From a virus, in IMG/VR virus record IMGVR_UViG_3300032240_000720, positions 1 to 27,395 of that record: a stretch of DNA of 27,395 bases. One strand, written 5' to 3'. Shown here in pieces: positions 2,739-23,659 of this stretch. The notes under the pieces are model-generated. The model was not told the DNA's origin and did not search any database. It worked only from the letters and a program-made list of their open reading frames with translations. Position numbers and translations under genes: made by a program. Every line of letters starts with the position of its first letter. Position 1 is the stretch's first letter.

Positions 2739-3494
2739 ATGGCATATACAAGAGGCTCAAACGCTAACATTATCGTTGGTGCTGCAGCATTGTTCGTAAC
2801 TAAGGACTCGGCAACTCTAGATTCAACTACAATCCCAGGATTCGTTGATGGAGAATCGTACCGTGAGACCCTAAGTCTTCGTGAGACTGTTAAGTTCCGT
2901 AACGTTGGTTACACAAACAACGGTTTGGAAATTGCTTTTGCTCCAGATTTTGGTGAGGTAATGGTAGACCAACTACTAGACACCGCTAAAATCTTCAAGC
3001 AGGGCATGAAGGTTACACTAAAGACTACTCTTGCTGAAGCAACCTTGGAGAACCTTCTCCTATCGATTGCTGGCAAGACATCAGACTTTGGTGTTCTTAA
3101 CGTTGGAACATTTGCAGACACTGCGATTTTGGTTAACCCAACTGCTGCTCAGACAACATCTGTAGCAGGTGTTTCGACCGCAGCACTGACAACCGTTCAG
3201 ACTGCAACACTAAGCACTAATACCTTCCTGAACCTAACTTCAGGCGACCTGGGTGACTACCCAATCGAACGTGGTATCATTGCTATTGGTCCAGGACTTA
3301 ACAACCTTTCGGGTACAGGTGCTGACCAGTACAACAACCAGGGCGAGCGTGTTTACATTGCATACCGTGCTGTTTCAATCGACTCAGTAACAGTATCAGC
3401 AAAGCGTGACGCAGCAACATCATTCGAAGTATCGTTCCGTCTGCTTCCAGACAACAACGGTTCATACGGCAAGATTGTTGACCGCACTTACTAA
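2739..3494 (+). CDS. Major tail (tube) protein
   Basis: 251 residues, almost wholly beta with Thr/Ala-rich linkers, e.g. VKFRNVGYTNNGLEIAFAPD, a helix VDQLLDTAKIFKQG, then MKVTLKTTLAEATLENLLLS and a C-terminal SFEVSFRLLPDNNGSYGKIV. The EIAFAPDFGEV...TLKTTLAEAT.ENL pattern is that of siphophage tube subunits that stack as hexamers around the tape measure. Residues 125-205 look like an inserted Thr/Ser-rich domain. Codon use differs clearly from its neighbours: Asn AAC, Phe TTC, Arg CGT and Asp GAC dominate although the rest is AT-rich, as expected for a very highly expressed structural protein. It has its own promoter upstream and a strong terminator right after, so it is a single-gene unit. 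The SD before the ATG is weak. Confidence 0.8.
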   Translation: MAYTRGSNANIIVGAAALFVTKDSATLDSTTIPGFVDGESYRETLSLRETVKFRNVGYTNNGLEIAFAPDFGEVMVDQLLDTAKIFKQGMKVTLKTTLAEATLENLLLSIAGKTSDFGVLNVGTFADTAILVNPTAAQTTSVAGVSTAALTTVQTATLSTNTFLNLTSGDLGDYPIERGIIAIGPGLNNLSGTGADQYNNQGERVYIAYRAVSIDSVTVSAKRDAATSFEVSFRLLPDNNGSYGKIVDRTY

Positions 3495-3511
3495 AATTAA
3501 ATAGTGTTGAG

Positions 3512-3548
3512 ACTGCCCTGGGTTTATGCCTGGGGCAGTTTCTTTTTT
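3512..3548 (+). terminator. Rho-independent terminator after major tail protein gene
   Basis: Stem ACTGCCCTGGG (3512-3522), 6-base loop TTTATG, and CCTGGGGCAGT (3529-3539): 11 pairs including two G-U wobbles, followed by TTCTTTTTT (3540-3548). Classic intrinsic terminator. The last T of the tract is also the T of the TG in the next promoter's extended -10. Confidence 0.9.
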
Positions 3549-3556
3549 GGTATACT
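3548..3556 (+). promoter_or_regulatory. Leaderless promoter of long tail chaperone
   Basis: Extended -10 TGGTATACT at 3548-3556. With the hexamer's last base at -7 the start of transcription falls on 3563, the A of the ATG. No Shine-Dalgarno is present between the terminator U-tract and the ATG. No good -35 is seen; the -35 region is inside the terminator hairpin. Confidence 0.6.
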
Positions 3557-3562
3557 TAGTTA

Positions 3563-4270
3563 ATGCCTACAAAAATATATACTACAGATGAAGTCGAATT
3601 AGTAGACGGTACTGTAATTGAAGTTTCACCATTAAAGATTAAATACATGAGACAGTTCATGGATGTATTTGACACAATCAAAGAAGCAAAAACAGACGAA
3701 GAATCAATTGCTATTCTGTCTGAATGCGTAAGAATTGCTATGAAGCAATATCACCCAGTAATTAAAACAATTGAAGACCTAGAGGATTCAGTAGACTTAC
3801 CAACAATATATAAAATTATTGACATTTGTGCTGGTGTTAAGATTAATACAAATGAACAAACCAATGAGCCAATGCCTCAAACTGCAAAATCCAAAAATGA
3901 AAATACATGGGAAAAGTTAGATTTAATCAAATTAGAATCAGAAATATTCCTATTAGGCATATGGAAAAACTATGATGAATTAGAACGAAACATATCGATG
4001 CCAGAACTAATGGCTATACTAGAATCAAAGAGAGATTTGGATTATGTTGAAAAGAAATTCCTTGCTGCAATGCAAGGGGTAGACCTAGATGAAGCAAGTG
4101 GCAAACAAGAGGAAGACCCTTGGGAAGCCATGAAAGCCAGGGTAGCAGCACAAGCAAGTGGTATTGGTAATGGAGACCCTAATGACATTACATCTCTACA
4201 AGGTCAAAAAGCACAGCAATATGGCTTCGGAATTGGTATGGGACTTGATTACGAAGTTGTTTCAAAATAA
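3563..4270 (+). CDS. Tail assembly chaperone, long form (gpGT-like)
   Basis: 235 residues. Residues 1-95 (ELVDGTVIEVSPLKIKYMRQ, ECVRIAMKQY, DLPTIYKI) align with the whole of the next gene product (4314-4640), about half identical by eye. Residues 110-235 are an extra T-like domain: LESEIFLLGIWKNYDELERN, ILESKRDLDYVEKKFLAAMQ, a DPWEAMKARVAAQ helix and a C-terminal GFGIGMGLDYEVV. In most siphophages a G domain and a GT fusion come from one locus by programmed frameshifting; here the fusion is one uninterrupted frame and the short form is a separate gene. Its role would be to bring tail-tube subunits to the tape measure. Position directly between tube and tape-measure genes supports this. It starts at an ATG on the predicted transcription start (leaderless). 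Confidence 0.8.
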   Translation: MPTKIYTTDEVELVDGTVIEVSPLKIKYMRQFMDVFDTIKEAKTDEESIAILSECVRIAMKQYHPVIKTIEDLEDSVDLPTIYKIIDICAGVKINTNEQTNEPMPQTAKSKNENTWEKLDLIKLESEIFLLGIWKNYDELERNISMPELMAILESKRDLDYVEKKFLAAMQGVDLDEASGKQEEDPWEAMKARVAAQASGIGNGDPNDITSLQGQKAQQYGFGIGMGLDYEVVSK

Positions 4271-4279
4271 CATTCTTTA

Positions 4280-4288
4280 TGTTATAAT
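4280..4288 (+). promoter_or_regulatory. Promoter of short tail chaperone
   Basis: Extended -10 TGTTATAAT (4280-4288) in the 43-base gap between the two chaperone genes; predicted start near 4295, giving a short leader that carries a strong Shine-Dalgarno AAGGAGGA (4303-4310). No clear -35 hexamer is seen. This gives the short chaperone independent expression. Confidence 0.6.
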
Positions 4289-4313
4289 TGACTAGAAACC
4301 ATAAGGAGGATTC

Positions 4314-4640
4314 ATGTCTACAACTATTAACGAAACAAAAACTGTAGAACTACTAGACGGTACAAAGATTTCTGTCCGTCCACTAAAAATCTCACTTCTT
4401 CGCCCTTTTATGACAAAGTTTGAGGGTATTTCAGAAGTAGCAGACAACAATGAGAAGTCAATGACTCTTCTCATGGAATGTGTTCAGATTGCTCTGAAGC
4501 AGTATGCTCCAGAGATTGCCACAGACCTGAAGGCACTAGAAGAACTTCTAGACCTTCCAACCGTATACAAGATTGTCGAAGAGGCATCTGGTATCAAACT
4601 TAGCGAAGCCTCGCTAATGGGTGGTCTAGTAAACGGCTAA
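4314..4640 (+). CDS. Tail assembly chaperone, short form (gpG-like)
   Basis: 108 residues, homologous over its length to the N-terminal domain of the gene before it: shared VEL.DGT.I.V.PLKI, R.FM..F..I.E, ECV.IA.KQY.P.I, L...DLPT.YKI and G.K. It lacks the T-like C-terminal domain. It has the best Shine-Dalgarno of the structural region (AAGGAGGA, about 4 nt from the ATG) and more GC-rich codons (GAC, GTC, CGC) than the long form, suggesting higher expression. This matches the excess of G over GT needed in lambda-type tail assembly. No frameshift extension is possible: the tape measure starts 18 bases after its stop and the frame has no continuing T domain. It likely arose by duplication and truncation of the long gene, or the reverse. 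Confidence 0.8.
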   Translation: MSTTINETKTVELLDGTKISVRPLKISLLRPFMTKFEGISEVADNNEKSMTLLMECVQIALKQYAPEIATDLKALEELLDLPTVYKIVEEASGIKLSEASLMGGLVNG

Positions 4641-4658: not shown

Positions 4659-7600
4659 ATGGCTGATATTGAATCCAATGTAAAAGTAAATATAGATACG
4701 TCAGATGCTCTGGCGCAACTAAAACTTTTGCAACAGCAAATATCAGCCTTTCAGCAAGCCATGCGAAAAGCAGGTGCTGACAATGCACTGGCTGCACGAC
4801 AAATGCAGCAAAACCTTGTAAACTCTATCAATGGTACTGGTAAGTTTCAGGCAAACATTCAAACTATTCAAACAAGTGCAGAACGTTTTACAACATCACT
4901 TGAAAAGAACAAACTCACAATGGGTGAGTACTTCCGCTATGCAGGTGGAGCATCAAAAACTTTCGGTAAACTATTCAAATCTGAATTTGACACCATTAAT
5001 CAGGTTGCTCGTGAAAGAGTAAAAGACCTACAGACACAATACATCAAACTAGGTCGTGATGCTAATGGTGCTATGAAGGCTATTTCTGTTAGACCTCTAG
5101 CACTTGACATGGATAATTTGGGTACTAAAACTCAGATTACTGCTCAACGCCAAGCACTATTTAACCAACTTATGAAGCAGGGCTCTACCCAACTTCTAAA
5201 CTTTGGTAAGAATACACAATGGGCTGGTCGCCAACTTATGGTTGGTTTTACTGTACCGCTTATTATGATGGGTTCGGCAGCAGCAAAAGCCTATATGGAA
5301 ATTGAAAAGGCTTCTGTATCATTCCAACGTGTTTATGGAGACATGAATACAACAACAGAAGAAACCAATAAAATGGTTAAGTCTGTTAGGGCTTTGGCTA
5401 ATGAGTTTACTAAATATGGAATGTCTGTGTCTGGAACTATGGATATGGCAGCCAAGGCTGCTGCTATGGGTAAAACAGGGGCAGACCTACTTTCTCAAAT
5501 TTCTGAGGCTAATAAATTGGCGGTACTTGGTAACGTAGACCAAAACCAAGCACTAGAAACAACTATTTCACTAACAAATGCTTTTGGAATATCTGCACAA
5601 GACCTTGGTAAAAACATTGACTTCCTAAACGCAGTAGAAAACCAGACAGTAACATCCATTGAAGACTTGACAGTTGCTATCCCAAAGGCAGCACCAGTAA
5701 TTAAGCAACTTGGAGGAAATGTACAAGATTTGTCATTCTTCCTTACCGCTATGAAAGAAGGTGGCATAAATGCATCTGAAGGTGCAAATGCTCTAAAGTC
5801 TGGTCTTGCATCTATGATTAACCCAACTAAAAAGGCTTCCGACTTTCTTGCTGGATTTGGCATTAATGTAAGGGGAATTGTAGAGGGCGATAAAGGTAAC
5901 GTTAAAAAGACAGTTATTGATATGGCAAAGGCTTTCGACACCCTTGACCCACTAAACCGTGCTCGTGCTATTGAGCAGATGTTTGGTAAGTTCCAGTTCT
6001 CTCGTATTTCAACTTTGTTTCAAAACGTAATCAAAGAAGGTAGCCAAGCAAATGCTGTTGCAGGACTTGCAGGACAAACCGCAGAAGAACTTGCAGTACT
6101 ATCAGAACGAGAAATGAAAAAGATTTCAGATTCTCCTATGTACAAGTTTCAAAAATCTATTCAAGATATTCAGGCAAAACTTGCTCCAGTTGGAGAGGCA
6201 TTCCTAAAGGCTGTAACACCAATCATTGAATTTGTTGGAAAGATTTTAGATGGATTTAACAACCTAAGTGAAGGAACTAAATCTTTTGTAACTATTTTGG
6301 TTACTGCTGTTGCAGGTATTGGTCCTGCACTTCTTATGGGCTTTGGTCTTATTGCCAACGGTGTTGCAAACATTATGAAACTATTTACAAATATTAAAGG
6401 ATTTGTAAATAAAACAACAAAGCCATCTAACATACTTGGTGAGCAAACACAGTACATGAACTCTGAGCAGATGAAGGCTGCTGCTATTGCATCCTCACTT
6501 GACCAGGCTCACGCTAAACTTCGTCAAACATTTACATCTGAGGCAAGTGCCGTAAATGAACTTGCAACTGCATATAGAAATGCTATTCAGGCTCAACAGC
6601 AATTCCAGGGTGTTCCAAATGTTCCAACTGGAAATCCAAACATTAAACCAACAAGAAAATATGCTGCTGGTGTTAGCATGGTTCCTGGTCCTGCTGGTGC
6701 AGGAGACATTGTTCCAGCATTGCTATCTCCAGGTGAAGCAGTTATTCCTGCTAAACATGCAGCCAAGTATGCACCAGTAATTAGAGGAATGATTGCTGGC
6801 AACCTTCCTGGATTTATGGATGGTACTCCAGGTGCAGGTATGCTTCAGAGTACATATGGACCACTTACACAAAGACAAACAGAAGGTCTTCAAAGAACAG
6901 GACTTCAACTAAAAGATATTAGCGATGAAGTTATGGCTGGTCCATATGGCAAGGTCGCCCCTACTGATTTTGGTACACAGATTTCTCCAACTACTGGTCA
7001 CTCATTCCCTGCTTTTGAAGTAGGTGGAATTTACCAGAAACCAGACGGCACTAAGGTATTTGTCAAGCCACAGATGGATTTGACTGCAGCACTTGCAGAA
7101 GTTCGTGGAACAACCATCGCTCGTGATGCTCATGGTCTTGTAGCCCCGAAGCAAGATATTCGTGTAATGATGGACCCAACAGACCCAGAACACCGCCGTA
7201 GATTTATTGTCCTTGAGTCGCCATTGGATGAAAGACTTGCCAATGTTCCTCAAACATTTACTCAAGACCAATACTTTAAACAACTTGTTGCATCACTTCT
7301 TCGTGGAGATAAAGACCTTGGTGTTGGAAACCTCGGTGGAGATGTTCTTGCCGATGTTGGTCCTGCTGGTGTATTTGGCAGGGCATCTGGCAAACGTGCT
7401 CTTGGAAGTAAAATTAACTCAATGGAAGAACAAGCCATTATTAACCTTCTTGGTGTAAAGGGTGGTGCTAAGAGATTCTTTGCAACTGCAACAAAAGACA
7501 TTGCAGCAAAACTAACACCAGACGAATATGATGCAGCAATGAAGGCTGAGATTGCTACAGTTCTTCCAAAATTAGAAAATACAATTATTGGCTTTGGTCA

Positions 7601-10600
7601 AATGTCTCCAGACGAAGCCCAAGCATATAAAGATATGCTTCTTAGACTTCAACAAGGACAAACCACAGACTGGCGTAAATATCAGGCAATTCATGCTGGT
7701 GTAAAACTTAGTGGTGGCGGTAAAGTTGCTAGAGGTAAAACAGCACTTGAAATTCTAAATGAAGCACTTGGCATTCAGGAAAGTCACCTTCAAGGTGCAA
7801 TGGACCCTAATGACCCAGAGATTATGAAACAACTTCAAAGAGTTCATGGTAAAAATGTAACAGCAGCAGACTATAAAAACTTTGAGGTTCTTGGCAACCT
7901 AACAATGACACTTCCAGGAATTGTAAATCAAAGACTAAAATCTGGTGGTATGCAGTCCCAGCAATTCCTACAGGTATATAGTGCACTAACAGGAAAATTA
8001 AGTAAGACTGCTCTTCGTGCTGGAATCACAGACATGTCAATTTCTCAACAACTTGAGAACATGATTGGACAAAAAGCAGCAGAAGATGCAATCGTCACTG
8101 ACCCATCATTGGGCAAAGCGACTAAGGAAACACTATCAAATGCATCAACAGCACCTGGTGCTATAGGTGGTGCAGCAAACCTATTGCTTGCTAGAGCAAG
8201 ACAAGTTGGAACAGTACGTTCAAAACTAGACCTATCTGAAGGTAGCCAACATGACATTTTCTTAGGTATGTTAAAACGTAAAGAAATTAAACCTAATGCA
8301 ACTGGTACAGAATTTAATACTACATTTGGTGCTAGAATGGCTCGCTGGCGTATGCCAGGAGGAACTGGGGCAAAGGCAACAAAAGAAGACCTAGAACTTA
8401 GAAAAGCAGCACAAGTTGCTCTTGCACAATGGATGGCAACTGGTGCAAATCCTGAATCATTGCCAGTTGCAACATTTAATGGTAAACAATATCCTCTAAA
8501 ACTTAGAACAAATAGCGAAGGTGCTGGTACATTTGGAACAGGTTCTGGAGCATTACAACCATCATATGACCAAAATAAAAAGGGTTATGAGGGCAATCTT
8601 GGACTTGCTGATGGTGGAGTAGATGTTCTAAGAAATATTCTTGGTTTGCCTATGCAGGGATTTGCAGATGGTACTGCTAATGTAACTGGCAAGCCAAAGC
8701 CAAAAGCATCTGTATTTGATATTGATGATACCTTGCTTGAACTATCTGGATTTATGGAAAAGCATAAAGCAGAAAATGATAATCTTCCAGAAGACCAAAA
8801 GAAAAAATGGTATAAAGAAGTAGCCAAAAACCCACAACCAATTCCAGCAGGTATTGCAGCACTAAAAGCAGCCCAGGAACGTGGCAATAAAATCCTACTT
8901 ATGACTGCTCGTCCAGAATCATATGACCCACATACCATAGAAACTTTGAAAAAACTAGGTATTGATATGAATGGTGTAAAACTTATTTCAAGAAAAGATA
9001 AGGATTACCGTAAACCAGAACAGATGAAATATGACAAAACATCTGCCTACATGAAGTACTACGACATTGAAGAGTTCTATGATGATATGGCTGCTACTCG
9101 TGGTGCTATTAGTCTTTTGGGTATTCCAACAATTAATCCACTCAAACTTGCTGATGGAACAGCAGGAGTTCTACCACAAGGATTTTCTGCTATGCCAACA
9201 CAAGCAGAAAAAGATGCACAGGTTGCATTTGTTCAAAATTCCCCACTTGCTCAACTACAACGTGGCGATGCACTAGCAAGTCTAGTTGCTAAGTCTACAA
9301 TTGGAAAGGGCAATCAAATGTTCCGTGTTCCAACTATTAGACAAAATGAAGAACTAGCCACTAAACAGGTTGGTGACATAATTGACCTTGGTAATAGATT
9401 CTCTTCTATTGCATCACAATCTGAATTGCAAGCAATTGGAATGACCGCAGCAGGAAAACTTAATACTGGAAATAGAGAACGTGCTGTTAATACTATTTTG
9501 AAACTTGTTGCTGGTTATGATATGCCAGGAATTATGAATCATAATGCATATAACCCTGATTATAAGAAACAGGCATTTGGAGAAAAGGGTGGTGCAGAAT
9601 ATCCATTCCAATCAGAAGGGCTACTTCCTCCAGGACTAAAGGGTAAAATTACTAGTATTACTGGTGGCATACCAAAAATTATTGAAGTTCTAATGCTTAA
9701 ACTTGCTAAAGGTGGATTTATTCCTGGTTATGCTGATGGAGTGTTTTCAGTTCCAGGACCAAAAGGTGCTGGTGATGTAGTTCCTGCCATGCTATCTCCT
9801 GGTGAGGCTGTTATTCCTGCCAAACAAGCAGGTAAACATCGTGGACTAATACAGGGAATGATTTCTGGTAATTTGCCAGGATTTGCTAATGGTGGAATTG
9901 TTGGGTATGAAGATGGTGGATTTATTAGTGATAAATATAATGAAGGTCACCCAATGCCAGTTAAAGTCATGGAGGACATTAGTAAAAAGAAGGATGCTGA
10001 GGCTGCAAGATTAGCAGCATTGCAAGACAAGGCAGCAACTAAAGTTATTGCAGCAGCAGATGGAGTAGAAACAACTACCAAAGAAACTAAAATTACTGAT
10101 AAGGAAATTCGTCAGCAAATTAAAGAAGAAAAAGAAAGAGCAAAAAGAGAAGAAGCAGAAAATAAAAGAATTGCAGATAATCAAAAAAGAGTTAATGCTA
10201 ACTATGACCAAATGTCAAAAGAACAGCAGATTAAATTTGATAAACAACTTGCTGGCAAAGGTATTGCTGGAAAAATTTCTGGAGCATTTACAAGAAATGA
10301 AACAACTGGTAAAATACAGTCTGCAATGTATGCTCTTACAACTGTTGCTGGTCTAGCATCAACCATTCCAGGTAAAGTTGGTGAGGCTGCTCAAGCAGCA
10401 ATGGGACCAATCACTGCAGCAACTACAGCAATGTCATTAATTCCTGGTCCTGCTGGTTTGGTTGTAGCAGCATTTGCTGCTGTTGGAGTAGCATTGTTCC
10501 AGATTAATGACCATCTAAATAAACTTAGAGACGAATCTTTTAGACTAACAAATGCAATGGGTAGCGGAAAAGATGCTATGAGTAAGTTCTCAGAGTTTGC

Positions 10601-13600
10601 AAAAACTGTAAGCGGTACTGAAGCAATGGACAAACGCCGTCAACAAAGTGCTGGTCAATTCTTTAATGTGGTTCAAGGAAAAACAACTTTTGGTGAATCA
10701 TACATGAAGGGTGATTCTGGAAAACAACTTGTTAAAGATGTTAATCAGTCTATTAAACAAGGTGGTTTGGGAGAAGCAAAAACTCTTATTACCAATCAAC
10801 TTTCTACTGCTATTGCTTCTGGTGTAATGACTCCAGCACAAGCAAGAAGTATTGCTGCTAATCTTGGTGCACAACTTGGAGACATGTCATTTGGAATGGA
10901 AATTTCTGGAAAACTACTTGATTTGGTTGGTCCAAACGGAGAAAACCTTACAAAAGAACCATTGCTTGTAAGAATGAGGCTTGTTGAAGAAGCAAATTCT
11001 CAATTCCAAAAACAAGCAGGAGTGGCTAACGATAAAGTTAATGCTGGAACTACTACAAATGCTGTTGCAGGAGCAGGGACTACTGGTCTGGTTGCTGGTG
11101 GATTAGCCCTTGGCGGAGCAGCAGCCCTATCAACTGCAGTTGCTGGTAGTGCTGCACTGATGTCAACAGCCATTGGAGCAACAATTGCTTCTGGACCTTT
11201 TGCTCCTGTTGTTGGAGCAATTGCAGCAATAACAGTTGGAACAGCAATGATTGTTAACTATCAGGGAGAAGTGGCAAAACAAGCAGGTGCACTAGAGGCT
11301 AATCTGGGTAATGCACTTTCTGTTCAGCAACAGATGGTAGATTCTTTGCAGGTAGATTATGAAAAACGTATTGCTGCAGCAACGGCTGCTGGAGATACTG
11401 CTGAAGCAACAAGACTTCAAAATCAATACCTAGTTGACCAAGCAAAACTTCTAGAAGTAAACTCTGACAATATGAAGACAATGTATAAAACGCTTGATAA
11501 TCAAGCAACTGGATTCCTTGGTATTGGTGATATGCAAACTGCTCTTGGAAATACTGCAAATGAATCAATCAAAAAAGCATTTGAGGGTACTGGTCAAGAG
11601 GTTGGTGCACAACTAGCAACAGACACAATTAATGGAATGGCTGGAGCAACTAATAATCAAAAGACAATGATTAAAACAATGGTTGCACAAAAACTCATTG
11701 GCTTTGACCAATTGACTACTGCCAATAATGTATTTGGTAAGAGTGAAGAAGGTGCAGGACAATTCCAAAAACTTTTGGAACAAAGCCCAACAGAAGCCAA
11801 CAGGGCTTTGGGACTTGCAGGAAATCTAAAAGCAGAAGACCAAAAGAAATTCCTTGTAGATATGAGTCTAAAAGACCCTGCTGCAACTAAATTAATGAAT
11901 GATGCTCTTGAAATGGCTCAACAAACAACTGGAGTTTTCTTTGGTCAAAAGAAGGTAGCAGAAGCAGTTATGAAATTCTCTATTGAGAATCCAGAAAAAA
12001 TGCTTAAATTTAAAGAAAATATTGACAAACTTAAAGCCTCAAAAACAATTGATATTAAAGTTGTTCAAAAAATTCTTGGTCCAAGTATTGCTAAACTACT
12101 TGGTGATAAAGGTGTTGCTAAATATTTTGGTAAGTACAATAAAGAAAACAAGGTAGTTTTCCTTACAGAAATGCAACAGATTATGGCTATGAAGGGCGAC
12201 CCAAATATGATTGCCTCATGGAACCTTTGGAATAAAGAAAATGGTCAGACAAAAAGTTTTGCTGAATATGCAGCCTATCAGGCAGATAGAACTGTTACAA
12301 CATTTGGTGTGGATAATACTGGGGCTGGCGGTGGCGGTGGCGAAGGACCAAAAGCACCAGAGCCATCTATTCTTGACCCATATGTAAAAATGCTTCGTGA
12401 AGCAAATAACTGGCAGCAAAAACTTACAGTTGGTTGGAATGATTCTTATAAAGCAATTATGAAATATGGCACTGCTTCAATTAAACAAATGGGTGGTATT
12501 GCTGTTCTAATGAAACAACAGGGAGCAGATGCTGAAATTGTTAGAGACTTTATGAACGGTACTGAAGAAGAACAAAACAGAATTGTTGATAAAAAGACTG
12601 GTAAACTAAGGGCTAATGCTGGGGCACTTCTAAAGAAGTTGAAAGAAATTAAAGATGCTAGTGAGATTGGTCTTACCTATGTTCTTGCAACACCTGCCGA
12701 ACGTTTGGCAAAAGATAATGAACTTTACCAGGCTGGTCTTGATGTAATCTCTAACAAAGAAAAGAAAATCAATGACAAGTATGATGCTCGTGCAAAGGCT
12801 CTTGATGAAATTGGTAGAATTCAAGACAGAAATAATCAACAGCAACAAGACACCATGACACTTGCAGATGCACTTTCTAAAGGTGACATCGCTGCTGCTG
12901 CTAAGGCTGCTTTACAGGCTAAACAAAATGACCAAAAATCAGCATTGGATGATGCTAAAACAAGTATTGAAAATGCTAGAAAAACTGAACTTCAAGGAAT
13001 TGAAGTTAAAATTAATGGAGTTCTTACTAACCGTACAAAATTGGAAGCAATCCTACAAGACAATGCTGAAAAGATTGCAGGATTTAAACTTTTGGAAGCA
13101 CAGCGTACCGCAAACATTGAGCAGAATGCTCTTAAATCTGCAAAACATATGGCTAGTATTCTTAAAGATGGAAAGGCTCTTGCTCTTATAAAGCCATATA
13201 ATCCAACTACTAGTTCAGGTTCTAGTAGTAGTTCTGGAAGTAGTTCTAATGGTAGCAATGGCAATAACCCACCAACCCCTCCTGCTCCACCAACTGCCCC
13301 TACAGGTAGTGGATTATCTAGTCCAGTAATGAGTCCACTTCAGGATAAAGGTGCTCAGATGGGGCTTGTCGATGCTGCTATAACTGCTAGAAGTGATGCA
13401 AGTGTTGGTGCTAAAAAGGTGGCAGATGCTTATGCTGCTGCTAAGAAGGCTGCAGGTCCAACAATGTCAAATGCTGCAGCCGAAAAGAAATTTGGAAAAG
13501 GTACTGCTGCTTTTAAAGATTGGCAAAAAAATCAAACAGCACTTGCTACAGCCACAACAAATGCACAAAACTTTGGACTTTTACAAGCCGATGGCTCTGT

Positions 13601-14546
13601 TCTAACGTCAGCACAAATTGATACTGCTAATGCTACACAAAAACAAATGATTAATACTTCTCAAGGTGCAAAAGATTTTGCAGCAGCAGCAGTTGCAGCA
13701 ATTCCTCCAGCAATCAGTGAACGTGCAGCAGCAATTAAGGCTTCGGCAGAAAAGTTTAATAAGGACCAAGGTAAACTTAATTCTTTAAAGTCAGCACTTG
13801 ACTCAGCAAGAGATAAGATAACTGGAGCAGCAGCGGCAAAAAGAAATAAACCAATTAATGAACTATATCAGGAATGGCTAAATACTTCAGATGCTTTGAG
13901 ACCACAAACTGCTTTTGGACAATTAATTACACTAAAGGGTGACCCAGAGGCTTATATGAAAAAGGCAACTGCAATGGCTAAGTACTTTGTAACTATTGAT
14001 GGTTATAGAACAGACCTAAGAAATGGTGGCTATTCAGACCTAAAACTTTTCAATGCAGGTCTTTTTGATTATAATTTTGGAAGCAATGGTCAAACACTAA
14101 AGCAAAGTTCAGACTTTAAGACTGGTCAGATGTTCTCTCCACACAAGGCTTTTGGTGGTGCTGTAGGAAATATTGGTTTTGCTACTGGAAATGTTATTCC
14201 AGATGCAGCAAACCTTACTCAATTTGGTAATAAGTATTATGCCACTGGTGGTATGGTTTATGCAAATAGGGGAATGCGTATTAGTTCTAGCAAATATGCT
14301 CTTGGAACAGACACTATTCCTGCTATGCTTACCCCAGGAGAATTTGTTATGAGGAAATCAGCGGTAGATTCAATTGGTGCTGGCAAACTACAAGCAATGA
14401 ATAGTGGAATGTCTGGTGGAGAATCAGTGTATAATTATAGTATTACAGTCAATGCTAATTCTTCAGATGCCAGCGATATTGCAGATTCCGTGCTAAGAGA
14501 GATTAAGCGTATTGACTCAAGACGAATTAGGAGTAACACAATCTAA
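4659..14546 (+). CDS. Tape measure protein, giant and multi-modular
   Basis: 3,295 residues, the tail length ruler and a protein expected to be ejected at infection. Residues 1-180: helical, Gln-rich coiled coil. About 180-575: TP901-like tape-measure core (KAYMEIEKASVSFQRVYGD, later AAAMGKTGADLLSQISEAN, MKEGGINASEGANALKSGL) ending in a hydrophobic segment (about 545-575). 673-722 and 1696-1745: a 50-residue repeat with LSPGEAVIPAK, 35 of 50 identical. 724-1687: inserted modules (kinase-like, HAD-like, ADP-ribosyltransferase-like, listed separately) split by GFADG-type linkers. 1790-1860: charged coiled coil. About 1910-1960 and 2130-2200: Ala/Gly-rich hydrophobic stretches, possibly membrane-inserting. 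2847-2885: Ser/Asn/Pro-rich linker. 3215-3233: a third motif DTIPAMLTPGEFVMRK. Linear ruler scaling (about 0.15 nm per residue) gives near 490 nm, or about 350 nm if the globular modules do not count. The SD is weak. Confidence 0.9.
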   Translation: MADIESNVKVNIDTSDALAQLKLLQQQISAFQQAMRKAGADNALAARQMQQNLVNSINGTGKFQANIQTIQTSAERFTTSLEKNKLTMGEYFRYAGGASKTFGKLFKSEFDTINQVARERVKDLQTQYIKLGRDANGAMKAISVRPLALDMDNLGTKTQITAQRQALFNQLMKQGSTQLLNFGKNTQWAGRQLMVGFTVPLIMMGSAAAKAYMEIEKASVSFQRVYGDMNTTTEETNKMVKSVRALANEFTKYGMSVSGTMDMAAKAAAMGKTGADLLSQISEANKLAVLGNVDQNQALETTISLTNAFGISAQDLGKNIDFLNAVENQTVTSIEDLTVAIPKAAPVIKQLGGNVQDLSFFLTAMKEGGINASEGANALKSGLASMINPTKKASDFLAGFGINVRGIVEGDKGNVKKTVIDMAKAFDTLDPLNRARAIEQMFGKFQFSRISTLFQNVIKEGSQANAVAGLAGQTAEELAVLSEREMKKISDSPMYKFQKSIQDIQAKLAPVGEAFLKAVTPIIEFVGKILDGFNNLSEGTKSFVTILVTAVAGIGPALLMGFGLIANGVANIMKLFTNIKGFVNKTTKPSNILGEQTQYMNSEQMKAAAIASSLDQAHAKLRQTFTSEASAVNELATAYRNAIQAQQQFQGVPNVPTGNPNIKPTRKYAAGVSMVPGPAGAGDIVPALLSPGEAVIPAKHAAKYAPVIRGMIAGNLPGFMDGTPGAGMLQSTYGPLTQRQTEGLQRTGLQLKDISDEVMAGPYGKVAPTDFGTQISPTTGHSFPAFEVGGIYQKPDGTKVFVKPQMDLTAALAEVRGTTIARDAHGLVAPKQDIRVMMDPTDPEHRRRFIVLESPLDERLANVPQTFTQDQYFKQLVASLLRGDKDLGVGNLGGDVLADVGPAGVFGRASGKRALGSKINSMEEQAIINLLGVKGGAKRFFATATKDIAAKLTPDEYDAAMKAEIATVLPKLENTIIGFGQMSPDEAQAYKDMLLRLQQGQTTDWRKYQAIHAGVKLSGGGKVARGKTALEILNEALGIQESHLQGAMDPNDPEIMKQLQRVHGKNVTAADYKNFEVLGNLTMTLPGIVNQRLKSGGMQSQQFLQVYSALTGKLSKTALRAGITDMSISQQLENMIGQKAAEDAIVTDPSLGKATKETLSNASTAPGAIGGAANLLLARARQVGTVRSKLDLSEGSQHDIFLGMLKRKEIKPNATGTEFNTTFGARMARWRMPGGTGAKATKEDLELRKAAQVALAQWMATGANPESLPVATFNGKQYPLKLRTNSEGAGTFGTGSGALQPSYDQNKKGYEGNLGLADGGVDVLRNILGLPMQGFADGTANVTGKPKPKASVFDIDDTLLELSGFMEKHKAENDNLPEDQKKKWYKEVAKNPQPIPAGIAALKAAQERGNKILLMTARPESYDPHTIETLKKLGIDMNGVKLISRKDKDYRKPEQMKYDKTSAYMKYYDIEEFYDDMAATRGAISLLGIPTINPLKLADGTAGVLPQGFSAMPTQAEKDAQVAFVQNSPLAQLQRGDALASLVAKSTIGKGNQMFRVPTIRQNEELATKQVGDIIDLGNRFSSIASQSELQAIGMTAAGKLNTGNRERAVNTILKLVAGYDMPGIMNHNAYNPDYKKQAFGEKGGAEYPFQSEGLLPPGLKGKITSITGGIPKIIEVLMLKLAKGGFIPGYADGVFSVPGPKGAGDVVPAMLSPGEAVIPAKQAGKHRGLIQGMISGNLPGFANGGIVGYEDGGFISDKYNEGHPMPVKVMEDISKKKDAEAARLAALQDKAATKVIAAADGVETTTKETKITDKEIRQQIKEEKERAKREEAENKRIADNQKRVNANYDQMSKEQQIKFDKQLAGKGIAGKISGAFTRNETTGKIQSAMYALTTVAGLASTIPGKVGEAAQAAMGPITAATTAMSLIPGPAGLVVAAFAAVGVALFQINDHLNKLRDESFRLTNAMGSGKDAMSKFSEFAKTVSGTEAMDKRRQQSAGQFFNVVQGKTTFGESYMKGDSGKQLVKDVNQSIKQGGLGEAKTLITNQLSTAIASGVMTPAQARSIAANLGAQLGDMSFGMEISGKLLDLVGPNGENLTKEPLLVRMRLVEEANSQFQKQAGVANDKVNAGTTTNAVAGAGTTGLVAGGLALGGAAALSTAVAGSAALMSTAIGATIASGPFAPVVGAIAAITVGTAMIVNYQGEVAKQAGALEANLGNALSVQQQMVDSLQVDYEKRIAAATAAGDTAEATRLQNQYLVDQAKLLEVNSDNMKTMYKTLDNQATGFLGIGDMQTALGNTANESIKKAFEGTGQEVGAQLATDTINGMAGATNNQKTMIKTMVAQKLIGFDQLTTANNVFGKSEEGAGQFQKLLEQSPTEANRALGLAGNLKAEDQKKFLVDMSLKDPAATKLMNDALEMAQQTTGVFFGQKKVAEAVMKFSIENPEKMLKFKENIDKLKASKTIDIKVVQKILGPSIAKLLGDKGVAKYFGKYNKENKVVFLTEMQQIMAMKGDPNMIASWNLWNKENGQTKSFAEYAAYQADRTVTTFGVDNTGAGGGGGEGPKAPEPSILDPYVKMLREANNWQQKLTVGWNDSYKAIMKYGTASIKQMGGIAVLMKQQGADAEIVRDFMNGTEEEQNRIVDKKTGKLRANAGALLKKLKEIKDASEIGLTYVLATPAERLAKDNELYQAGLDVISNKEKKINDKYDARAKALDEIGRIQDRNNQQQQDTMTLADALSKGDIAAAAKAALQAKQNDQKSALDDAKTSIENARKTELQGIEVKINGVLTNRTKLEAILQDNAEKIAGFKLLEAQRTANIEQNALKSAKHMASILKDGKALALIKPYNPTTSSGSSSSSGSSSNGSNGNNPPTPPAPPTAPTGSGLSSPVMSPLQDKGAQMGLVDAAITARSDASVGAKKVADAYAAAKKAAGPTMSNAAAEKKFGKGTAAFKDWQKNQTALATATTNAQNFGLLQADGSVLTSAQIDTANATQKQMINTSQGAKDFAAAAVAAIPPAISERAAAIKASAEKFNKDQGKLNSLKSALDSARDKITGAAAAKRNKPINELYQEWLNTSDALRPQTAFGQLITLKGDPEAYMKKATAMAKYFVTIDGYRTDLRNGGYSDLKLFNAGLFDYNFGSNGQTLKQSSDFKTGQMFSPHKAFGGAVGNIGFATGNVIPDAANLTQFGNKYYATGGMVYANRGMRISSSKYALGTDTIPAMLTPGEFVMRKSAVDSIGAGKLQAMNSGMSGGESVYNYSITVNANSSDASDIADSVLREIKRIDSRRIRSNTI
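6675..6824 (+). repeat. PGE-type 50-residue repeat, copy 1 (tape measure residues 673-722)
   Basis: Protein-level direct repeat. Key residues: VPGP, GAGD, VPA, LSPGEAVIPAK, GMI, GNLPGF. It aligns without gaps to residues 1696-1745 with 35 of 50 identities. A related shorter motif (TPGEFV) occurs near the C-terminus. It immediately precedes the block of inserted modules. Confidence 0.85.
6828..8600 (+). other. Tape measure module with possible kinase-like fold (residues 724-1314)
   Basis: The module lies between PGFMDGT (717-723) and LADGG (1316-1320). Residues 786-907 read like a small kinase fold: a turn with VGGIYQKPDGTK then VFVKP (K803 as ATP lysine), helix with E814 (LAEVRGTTIARDAHGLVAP), a hinge-like strand FIVLESPLDE (849-858), then RGDKDLGVGNL (D884/D886, N891) and ADVGPAGVF (D899 in the metal-binding Asp position). 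This is the residue order of HipA or PI3/4-kinase-like folds, with D...N...D spacing. Residues about 930-1314 are mainly helical and unrecognised. The kinase reading is an inference from motif order only. Confidence 0.35.
8691..9146 (+). other. HAD phosphatase-like domain inside tape measure (residues 1345-1496)
   Basis: Motif I VFDIDDTLLE with nucleophile D1354 and acid D1356; motif II MTARPE with T1416; a Lys-rich stretch (SRKDKDYRKPEQMKYDK) in the motif III place; motif IV FYDD with D1475/D1476. All four HAD motifs are in order at normal spacing for a 150-residue domain, resembling polynucleotide 3'-phosphatase or small acid-phosphatase-type HADs. The catalytic residues are intact, so it may be active. 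It is bounded by GFADGT (1334-1339) and LADGT (1497-1501). Confidence 0.8.
9162..9719 (+). other. Possible ADP-ribosyltransferase-like domain in tape measure (residues 1502-1687)
   Basis: Residue order recalls the R-S-E class of mono-ADP-ribosyltransferases: MFRVPTI (R1556), then RFSSIAS (S1582/S1583, place of the STS motif), then YPFQSEGLLPPG (Q1651-x-E1653), where the Q/E-x-E motif directly followed by LLPPG is typical of toxin ARTs. R to E spacing is 97 residues. The first strand is weak and R to S spacing (26) is short, so this is tentative. Flanked by LADGT (1497-1501) and PGYADG (1689-1694). Confidence 0.4.
9744..9893 (+). repeat. PGE-type 50-residue repeat, copy 2 (tape measure residues 1696-1745)
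   Basis: Second copy of the repeat at residues 673-722, closing the block of inserted modules; followed by GIVGYEDGG and then the charged coiled coil. Codons differ from copy 1 at many third positions, so it is not a recent DNA duplication. Confidence 0.85.
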
Positions 14547-20630: not shown

Positions 20631-22265
20631 ATGATTACTAATGACGGTGTAGAACTTCTTTCTAAATATTTGGTTGGTCAGGCGACCTCCTATGCTTCTT
20701 ATATTGCGGTTGGGTCTGGAGCAAGACCTACCTCAAATAATCAACCAATTACTGTTGTTACGTCAGGAGGTATTGTTGGAACTGTTTCTGGTTCTGGACC
20801 ATACACAACAACAATAAGTCTAAGTTCTGGATACTGGGCTTACCTAGAAGTTGGCGATGTTATTACTGCTACAAGTACTAGCACTGGCTCTTTGGGTTCT
20901 GGAACAGTAACTGTTACAGCCATAAATAGTCCAACACAAATTGCGGTATCAAGTACTTCAACCATGACATCTGGTACAGGTTTAACAAATATTAAAGTAT
21001 ATTCAAATTTAACCTCACAATTATTAACAACAAAGAAAAATCTTGATTTTGAAGTGGCAAGATTTCCAATTTCTTCACGTTCATATGCAATTGAAAAACA
21101 AATTGTAAACCCAACATCTTTGTATATTGTTAGCCCAACATCAATAATTGTAAACATTGCTTCTGGTCATCCATTTGGAATTGGGGATGCAGTAAATATT
21201 TCTGGTGTATTGATTCCAGTAACTGGACCAACCGCTTTTAAAGAAGTAAATGGTTTATATACCATTACTGCTATTTCTAGTACAACATTTACAGCAACTA
21301 TTTATGACCCTACTGTTCCAACATACTGGGATGCAACAATGTATTCAACACCATATACTGGTCTTTCTTATAATGGTAATGTGTTTTATGCTACAGTATT
21401 TACCAAACAAATATCCCTAACATCTGAAATGTCAGATATTACTAAATATAATATTTCAGAATTAGGATTATACTCATTAGGCTCTAATCAATATAGTGCA
21501 TCTGGAAATAGTAGAATGCTTTTGGGATTCTCAGATACAGAAGGTTGGGAATACTATACTGGAACAACATTTTCTACTGTGCCTACCAACTCAGTAAGTA
21601 TTCCAATTTCTACTCCTTATATTTGTTCCACAAGCGATTCTTATTGGAATGGTTCGTCTGTAAATCTTAGACAAGAATTTCCAAGAATTTTTAGTCAGAG
21701 TTTGATTGTTCCAGGTGCTTTGTCAAATTATTCTTCTGGAACAACATTTACATCTAACTATATAAGGTTAAGAAATCCAGGGGTAGACTTATCAAAATCC
21801 TCTGGCTTAGATGAAATTAGATTGGCATACTCAATTATGAATGCGGTAACTACACCAACAGCATTGCCAACAGCCCTATATATTATGTTTGAATTCGTAT
21901 GTTCTGACGGTATAACTACATCTAAAATATTATTTAGTGACACTGGAACAACAGTTATTTATCCAAATAGATATAATGTACTTACAAAAAAGATGTCAGA
22001 TTTTGTTTCTTCGTCTGGATTTGACTGGGCAAAAGTTACTTCTGTAAATGTTTACTGTTCGCTTGAACCAGCGTCTGGTACACCAACAAACGATTATGCT
22101 GTTGTTATAGATGGTTTAAGATTTGAAAATACAGGAACAGAAAATCCACTGTATGCTCTTACAGCATATACAATTGTAAATAATACAACCGCAAGTCCAA
22201 TAGACAAGGTTGCAAACTCTAATGACTTAATTAATTTTAGAATGGATTTAGCAGTAGGTAAATAA
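20631..22265 (+). CDS. Minor tail protein / fibre with beta domains
   Basis: 544 residues. The first 35 residues (MITNDGVELLSKYLVGQATS then YIAVGSGARP) form a base seen in many phage fibre-like proteins, where the chain is anchored on the tail tip. About 45-115: a Gly/Ser/Thr-rich beta domain. About 160-230: a third FCCH-like domain (HPFGIGDAVNISGV, EVNGLYTITAISSTTFTATI). About 345-500: a beta-sandwich resembling a carbohydrate-binding module (FDWAKVTSVNVYC, then YAVVIDGLRFEN). Probably a cell-surface contact protein. Ligand unknown. Likely translated from a leaderless message; two bases separate it from the next gene, so the two are co-transcribed. Confidence 0.6.
   Translation: MITNDGVELLSKYLVGQATSYASYIAVGSGARPTSNNQPITVVTSGGIVGTVSGSGPYTTTISLSSGYWAYLEVGDVITATSTSTGSLGSGTVTVTAINSPTQIAVSSTSTMTSGTGLTNIKVYSNLTSQLLTTKKNLDFEVARFPISSRSYAIEKQIVNPTSLYIVSPTSIIVNIASGHPFGIGDAVNISGVLIPVTGPTAFKEVNGLYTITAISSTTFTATIYDPTVPTYWDATMYSTPYTGLSYNGNVFYATVFTKQISLTSEMSDITKYNISELGLYSLGSNQYSASGNSRMLLGFSDTEGWEYYTGTTFSTVPTNSVSIPISTPYICSTSDSYWNGSSVNLRQEFPRIFSQSLIVPGALSNYSSGTTFTSNYIRLRNPGVDLSKSSGLDEIRLAYSIMNAVTTPTALPTALYIMFEFVCSDGITTSKILFSDTGTTVIYPNRYNVLTKKMSDFVSSSGFDWAKVTSVNVYCSLEPASGTPTNDYAVVIDGLRFENTGTENPLYALTAYTIVNNTTASPIDKVANSNDLINFRMDLAVGK
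21107..21313 (+). other. FCCH-like beta domain, copy 3 (in fibre-like protein)
   Basis: SIIVNIASGHPFGIGDAVNI, then SGVLIPVTGPTAFKEVNGLY, then TITAISSTTFTATI. Same strand and HG/NG order as copies 1 and 2, with a longer loop before the NG. The most diverged of the three. Confidence 0.45.
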
Positions 22266-23227: not shown

Positions 23228-23659
23228 ATGGCAAAAGTACCCTCACTACCAAGCAATGGTCAACCTATCGATACTCAGTATCTGTACGACATTGTAAACT
23301 CACTTATTAGCATTAATTCAGAACTTGCATCTTATGGTAATTCAAATATTAAAATTGCTGGTCAAACAGTTGCTAAAACAAAAACTAACTCCATTAGTTT
23401 TGATGCACAAACAGTAACTGCTGTTAGTGCTGGTAGTGACGTTAAAAAGGGAGAGTCAAAGACAGGCTCAGTAGCCTTTGCTACATTCTTCAACAAAGTT
23501 CCAGTTGTTACTGCAACTATTGTTTCTAAAAGTACTACAACAGTTAAGGCTACTGTTACCATCACTGCCGTAGATACAACATCAGTCTACTACAAGATTG
23601 ATTTTGACTCTAACGGTAAGACAACCCTAGACTTAAATATTATTGCTATCGGAGCATAA
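23228..23659 (+). CDS. Small tail protein with H-type-lectin-like domain
   Basis: 143 residues. Residues 1-40 are an anchoring part (SLPSNGQPIDTQYLYDIVNS, LISINSELAS). Residues about 75-143 have the layout of H-type lectin domains: a strand TGSVAFATFFNK, then VPVVTATIVSKS, strands with TVTITAV, and YYKIDFDSNGKT, which matches the 'v.F...F...P.V......vt......F.v' pattern. H-type lectins bind glycans and often form trimers or hexamers at fibre tips. It has its own leaderless promoter, so it may be made at a different level from the other tip genes. The TAATG overlap couples it to the DNA-binding protein gene downstream. The lectin call is fold-level and tentative. Confidence 0.5.
   Translation: MAKVPSLPSNGQPIDTQYLYDIVNSLISINSELASYGNSNIKIAGQTVAKTKTNSISFDAQTVTAVSAGSDVKKGESKTGSVAFATFFNKVPVVTATIVSKSTTTVKATVTITAVDTTSVYYKIDFDSNGKTTLDLNIIAIGA

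Follow-up and report, generated by a model that had tools for sequence, protein, structure and literature searches.

The frameshift that yields both G and GT, the short and long forms of the tail assembly chaperone, is a textbook case of recoding across tailed phages, and is usually explained in terms of a fixed protein ratio. According to a 2016 recoding review (PMC5009743), G-T frameshifting is widely conserved in long-tailed phages except T4, and in lambda the tape measure protein is bound by gpG and gpGT in a ratio of about 30:1, while T brings in the tail tube protein; for the -1 frameshift of this type in lambda and HK97 the same review cites Xu, Hendrix and Duda 2004. The locus analysed here, in a 27,395-base virus record (the window), raises the question of whether a phage may obtain both forms without that frameshift. 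The answer favoured, with a probability of roughly 80%, is that the locus makes G and GT from two paralogous genes, and not from one frameshifted gene, and that their ratio is set by initiation signals.

Two genes of the plus strand are concerned. The first (3563-4270) is a single open frame for a 235-aa product, the long chaperone or GT form, with a G domain at residues ~1-98, a linker at ~99-114 and a T domain at ~115-235; the second (4314-4640) encodes the short chaperone or G form, of 108 aa, as a gene of its own. As in cultured relatives, both are located between the genes of the major tail protein and of the tape measure protein, also on the plus strand. The former (2739-3494) encodes an Ig-domain type protein matching phrog_2175 (1e-27) and phrog_885, major tail protein (3e-4), and sits where Stanwilliamsviridae have their annotated major tail protein, while the latter (4659-14546) encodes 3295 aa matching phrog_10030, tape measure (1e-99), and PF10145 (9e-28).

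Two different families are matched by the long product, phrog_10504 (1e-23) at its N-terminus and phrog_10474 (1e-17) at its C-terminus, which makes it a two-domain fusion; the short product matches phrog_10504 and gives no match to phrog_10474. By BLASTP, the two products share 49% identity and 70% positives over 97 residues (E 2e-28), the aligned part of the long form being its N-terminal ~95-97 residues, and a profile-profile comparison of the short product with long residues 1-98 gives a probability of 100 (E 3e-39). As expected of the G/GT family, the short form corresponds to the N-terminal domain of the long form. An earlier sequence-only reading of the locus had described a continuous G-plus-T fusion, a 108-aa homologue about half identical to its start, and a reversed gene order with GT first; all three descriptions hold, and the reversed order recurs throughout the clade described below. 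That reading had left the homology to be decided by a profile alignment, in which the similarity proved highly significant. Sequence searches of the chaperone products against Pfam and PDB gave zero matches, and no Rfam families or tRNAs were found on scanning the window.

Structure prediction, proposed in the same reading, gives both G domains the same fold. In the AlphaFold models of the long (me24af07e969c, pLDDT 78) and short (mce9a2855560b, pLDDT 80) forms, based on an alignment built without cultured-phage rows, the G domains are predicted to follow the same strand-strand-helix-helix-helix-helix order. In the VIA second look, the top PDB match of both is the HK97 chaperone 2ob9, a weak one (Z 4.7 for the long and 4.6 for the short form). 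With Foldseek against PDB, 2ob9 also ranked first for the short form, again weakly (E 1.1), and the full long model had nothing significant, the HK97 chaperone being absent among its matches to E 10. Against viral models, the short form had a match named tail assembly chaperone (E 4e-6).

From the perspective of their architecture, the relatives of this locus can be grouped into two states. IMG/VR was searched for them with the two proteins separately and with alignments of the T domain, cultured phages were added, domains and frames were assigned by profile HMMs on all stop-to-stop ORFs, and loci were deduplicated by core sequence. In the fused state (201 deduplicated loci, 181 of them complete), G and T form one ORF that is followed by a second G gene. 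In all 181 complete loci this short G gene stands on its own ahead of the tape measure gene, which is the two-gene pattern that the sequence-only reading suggested seeking in relatives, and the six fused loci without a second G each lie at a contig end. In the single-G state (67 loci), T lies in the -1 frame, and a second G was found in none of the 67. A further scan, centred on the nearest single-G relative (L302), returned 80 loci, each with a single G and with T out of frame to it; the shift is a plain -1 in 78, and two (L393 and L446) show apparent indels; over the 67 and these 80 later loci, T is in another frame throughout, and in the -1 frame in all but one. In L297, L393 and L446 the chaperone gene is broken by an apparent single indel or an odd frame, and these are probably assembly errors. 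Intermediate architectures were absent from three T-domain alignment scans and from one scan with the T of the sister group, and none of the 59 pattern matches in prophage and host genomes was a relative. The 132 cultured phages matched, each at a single place, are without exception Streptomyces or Rhodococcus phages, and those read are in the single-G state. The phages with the fused pattern are tailed and uncultured, and form a large group.

The two states also differ in their slip sites. Among the 67 single-G loci, the G/T overlap (19-124 nt) contains an in-frame XXXYYYZ heptamer in 61, cultured Streptomyces phages among them, and it is CCCAAAC or CCCAAAT in 57; in five Streptomyces phages of Boydwoodruffvirinae (L135, L137, L139, L140 and L141), CCCAAAY is replaced by CCCGGAA, a variant slip site. 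Joined, frameshifted chaperones are annotated in Yaboi, NiceHouse and Francesca. Judged by its frames and heptamers, the single-G state is the classical frameshift. A lambda-type arrangement has T in the -1 frame overlapping G, together with a slippery heptamer, and the window departs from it in having one open frame. The fused linkers, of 12 to 26 residues, lack an in-frame XXXYYYZ in 164 of the 200 scanned, the window included; the remaining 36 contain one, mostly in A-runs and at variable positions. Residual slippage in the fused gene was considered and rejected as the heptamer is not conserved, although it may persist in a minority of fused loci, because about a fifth of the linkers hold XXXYYYZ. 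A frameshift making the short form from 3563-4270, a finding named beforehand as decisive against two genes, was looked for, and the fused gene has no conserved slip site, which agrees with the claim of two genes in place of a frameshift.

These counts bear on an explanation in which the fused gene would still yield some short form, by slippage in the linker or by internal termination, with the downstream G as an extra or diverged copy. The 36 linkers with a heptamer would be what it predicts, but the 164 without one, against 61 of 67 frameshift relatives that have one, argue the other way, as do the presence of the short gene in every complete fused locus, its slow evolution (dN/dS 0.14) and the retention of its promoter and Shine-Dalgarno sequence. 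This explanation is considered very improbable.

As for the origin of the two genes, the G-domain tree gathers the long copies in a clade of their own (98/99), and does the same with the short copies (98/95). The fused T domains likewise form one clade (98/96), to which the single-G loci L302 and L046/L047 are nearest, and for each gene the trees give what appears to be a single origin. Long and short copies are 39% identical within a locus and 40% across loci, and since both values are equal the split between them should predate the clade. A recent duplication or gene conversion was rejected on the same comparison. The best G tree places the L302-type G beside the short clade and the long clade elsewhere (98/91), as would be the case if the long gene were a GT-fused copy imported from a related phage beside a resident G. 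Trees with long and short copies as one clade were nevertheless not rejected (AU p 0.15 and 0.13), the long clade sits on a long branch, and the T tree sets the fused T next to the L302/L046 group, all of which tell against import. Import is considered the less probable reading; it concerns the origin of the long gene, and is compatible with the two-gene explanation preferred here. Tandem duplication followed by fast evolution of the long copy appears to be the simpler reading. The earlier description of the genes as duplicated is upheld as to their paralogy, and duplication is likely, with an imported GT copy as a less probable alternative in view of the AU tests.

What the sequences show, then, is that an ancestor of the -1 slippery type, with a single G, T in the -1 frame and CCCAAAY, gave rise, in what appears to be one event, to a clade in which G at the upstream position is joined to T in one frame and the slip site is lost. 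The second, downstream G copy has retained the native G end, promoter and Shine-Dalgarno sequence.

The control regions of the two genes are of different kinds. Between the major tail protein gene and the long gene, an intrinsic-terminator-like hairpin with a T-run occupies positions 3509-3548 of the plus strand (hairpin 3509-3542, -25.7 kcal/mol); all 40 relatives sampled have a terminator-like element here, against one case in shuffled sequences. It is followed by the extended -10 element of the long gene, TGGTATACT (3548-3556, plus strand), which ends 6 nt before the ATG at 3563. Among 83 divergent loci, TGNTANNNT ends 5-9 nt before the long-gene ATG in 76 (shuffled mean 1.9) and at exactly 6 nt in 57 (shuffled mean 0.4), and a Shine-Dalgarno sequence precedes the long gene in none. 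Leaderless genes have been recognised by a TANNNT motif some 12 bp ahead of the start codon, together with the lack of a Shine-Dalgarno sequence (PMC3160421); under this criterion, the spacing of TGNTANNNT and the missing Shine-Dalgarno sequence predict that the long-gene mRNA is leaderless. This anatomy, kept in about 200 relatives, goes far beyond chance (76 of 83 loci against 1.9 expected).

The short gene has its extended -10 element, TGTTATAAT (4280-4288, plus strand), in the intergenic gap, 25 nt before the ATG at 4314, and its Shine-Dalgarno sequence, AAGGAGGA, at 4303-4310 of the same strand. Of the 178 distinct short-gene starts, essentially all are preceded by an extended -10, mostly 24-30 nt before the ATG, and a Shine-Dalgarno sequence of at least 5 nt precedes 77 of the 83 divergent short genes. 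The G genes of the single-G loci share this layout, with a Shine-Dalgarno sequence in 95% and the -10 mostly 22-27 nt before the start, which suggests that the short gene has a control region of the ancestral type. Both extended -10 boxes had been noticed from the letters of the window, at 3548 and 4280, and recur in the clade; the contrast proposed with them, of a leaderless long form against a short form started from AAGGAGGA, is borne out as a prediction by the absence of Shine-Dalgarno sequences in all 83 long genes and their presence in 77 short ones. The notion of separate promoters stands as regards distinct promoter-like elements, but not as regards two isolated units, as terminators were found in none of 40 sampled loci between the long and short genes or between the short and tape measure genes. 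With no terminator after the long gene, transcription from its promoter probably continues into the short and tape measure genes.

Elsewhere in the window, two more genes look leaderless, with TGGTATAAT ending 6 nt before the ATG at 23228 and 7 nt before that at 20631 and no Shine-Dalgarno sequence, and some other genes also lack a Shine-Dalgarno sequence. A leaderless start need not, for this reason, be a weak one.

Regarding expression, codon adaptation was measured against the codons of the major tail protein. In the window, the short gene scores 0.668 whereas the long gene scores 0.51, and the short gene exceeds the long one in 84 of 84 divergent loci, in agreement with the better-adapted codons ascribed to it from the outset. 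Mean values are 0.676 for the major tail protein, 0.624 for the short gene, 0.547 for the tape measure gene and 0.465 for the long gene; the measure is a proxy only, and the helicase gene of the window scores as high as the short gene. Codon bias supports more short than long form, as an indication and not a proof of their amounts. Median dN/dS is 0.24 for the long G domain, 0.12 for T and 0.14 for the short G, all indicative of purifying selection, which implies that the G domain of the long copy is still in use.

In the mechanism proposed, the long form would be transcribed from its own extended -10 promoter, downstream of the terminator; its mRNA would be leaderless and its codons are poorly adapted, and both the start and the codons point to a low level. 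Transcripts of the short form would start at the promoter of its own gene, with a probable contribution from read-through of the long promoter, and a strong Shine-Dalgarno start would yield a surplus of it. On the lambda model, the tape measure protein would be covered by numerous G and few GT molecules, T would recruit the major tail protein, and the G:GT ratio would arise from transcription and translation initiation, with slippage not involved. The chaperone biochemistry is assumed to carry over from lambda on the grounds of homology, position and conservation. The initial proposal that separate promoters and start signals set the ratio can be kept in that the signals do differ, whereas the promoters are not independent and the ratio itself is deduced from them.

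Alternatively, the two genes could be a sub-functionalised pair, made in similar amounts but used at separate steps or for separate parts of the tape measure protein, with no lambda-like G:GT ratio. That the G domains had already fallen to about 40% identity when the clade began to radiate, and that the long one evolves faster (0.24 vs 0.14), is what such a pair might show. However, codons and start signals indicate unequal expression, the two G domains agree in predicted fold and in profile, and the requirement for a ratio is established in the literature for lambda, so that this alternative seems unlikely.

The two-gene locus can be compared with several known systems. It resembles lambda and HK97 in its position between the major tail protein and tape measure genes and in having two forms, G and G+T; its G fold weakly matches the HK97 chaperone and, as in lambda, the sister group has T in a different frame. 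It is unlike both in that there are two genes, with GT first, no slip site, and promoter-like and start signals for each. The Stanwilliamsviridae (Streptomyces phages Coruscant, BillNye, Gilson, Bmoc and Yaboi) have homologous G and T domains in the same neighbourhood, and the Rhodococcus phages NiceHouse, Trina and Francesca a homologous T domain in the same gene neighbourhood, but these phages have a single G, with T reached via a -1 frameshift (at CCCAAAT, or at CCCGGAA in Boydwoodruffvirinae).

The closest parallel comes from T4-like phages, which are contractile-tailed. Some of them have a separate short gene and a fused long gene without a frameshift, according to the account of Vladimirov, Gautam and Davidson 2022 given in PMC10885494. 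The same features are found here, the long gene likewise being a fusion of the short one and a downstream part, as far as that account describes the T4-like pair. In T4, gp26 and gp51, which are probably the published pair, are paralogous but barely similar (E 2e-6) and divergently transcribed, whereas the genes described here are in tandem, about 40-50% identical, with a long gene predicted to be leaderless and a known frameshifting sister group. The PHROG assignments differ as well (10504/10474 here vs 150 for the likely T4-like chaperones). Since two-gene chaperones occur in some T4-like phages, the kind is already known, and the present case would be a new and apparently independent variant; the open-licence literature searched did not contain such a gene pair among relatives of the Streptomyces phages, its frameshifting sister group or the split between leaderless and Shine-Dalgarno starts. 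It is fairly likely that a widespread clade dropped programmed frameshifting once, independently of the T4-like case, in favour of two paralogues dosed by leaderless GT and Shine-Dalgarno G starts, which would be a natural and phylogenetically resolved exchange of recoding for control at initiation.

A famous translational trick would then have been swapped for ordinary gene regulation. That the fusion is never found without the second G gene argues, on comparative grounds, that the phage requires both forms and that control of their ratio can shift to promoters and start signals. With both states in close lineages and one apparent switch between them, the purpose of the frameshift can be asked, namely whether it serves the ratio alone or the coupling of the products. 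For annotation, an adjacent pair of chaperone genes is not necessarily a missed frameshift.

Finally, the tape measure protein of the window contains an embedded HAD-superfamily phosphatase domain at residues ~1345-1493 (window positions 8691-9137; PF03767, E 1e-14; phrog_415, E 8e-13), which resembles the phosphatase part of phage polynucleotide kinases. An enzyme-like domain of this kind is unusual within a tape measure protein.
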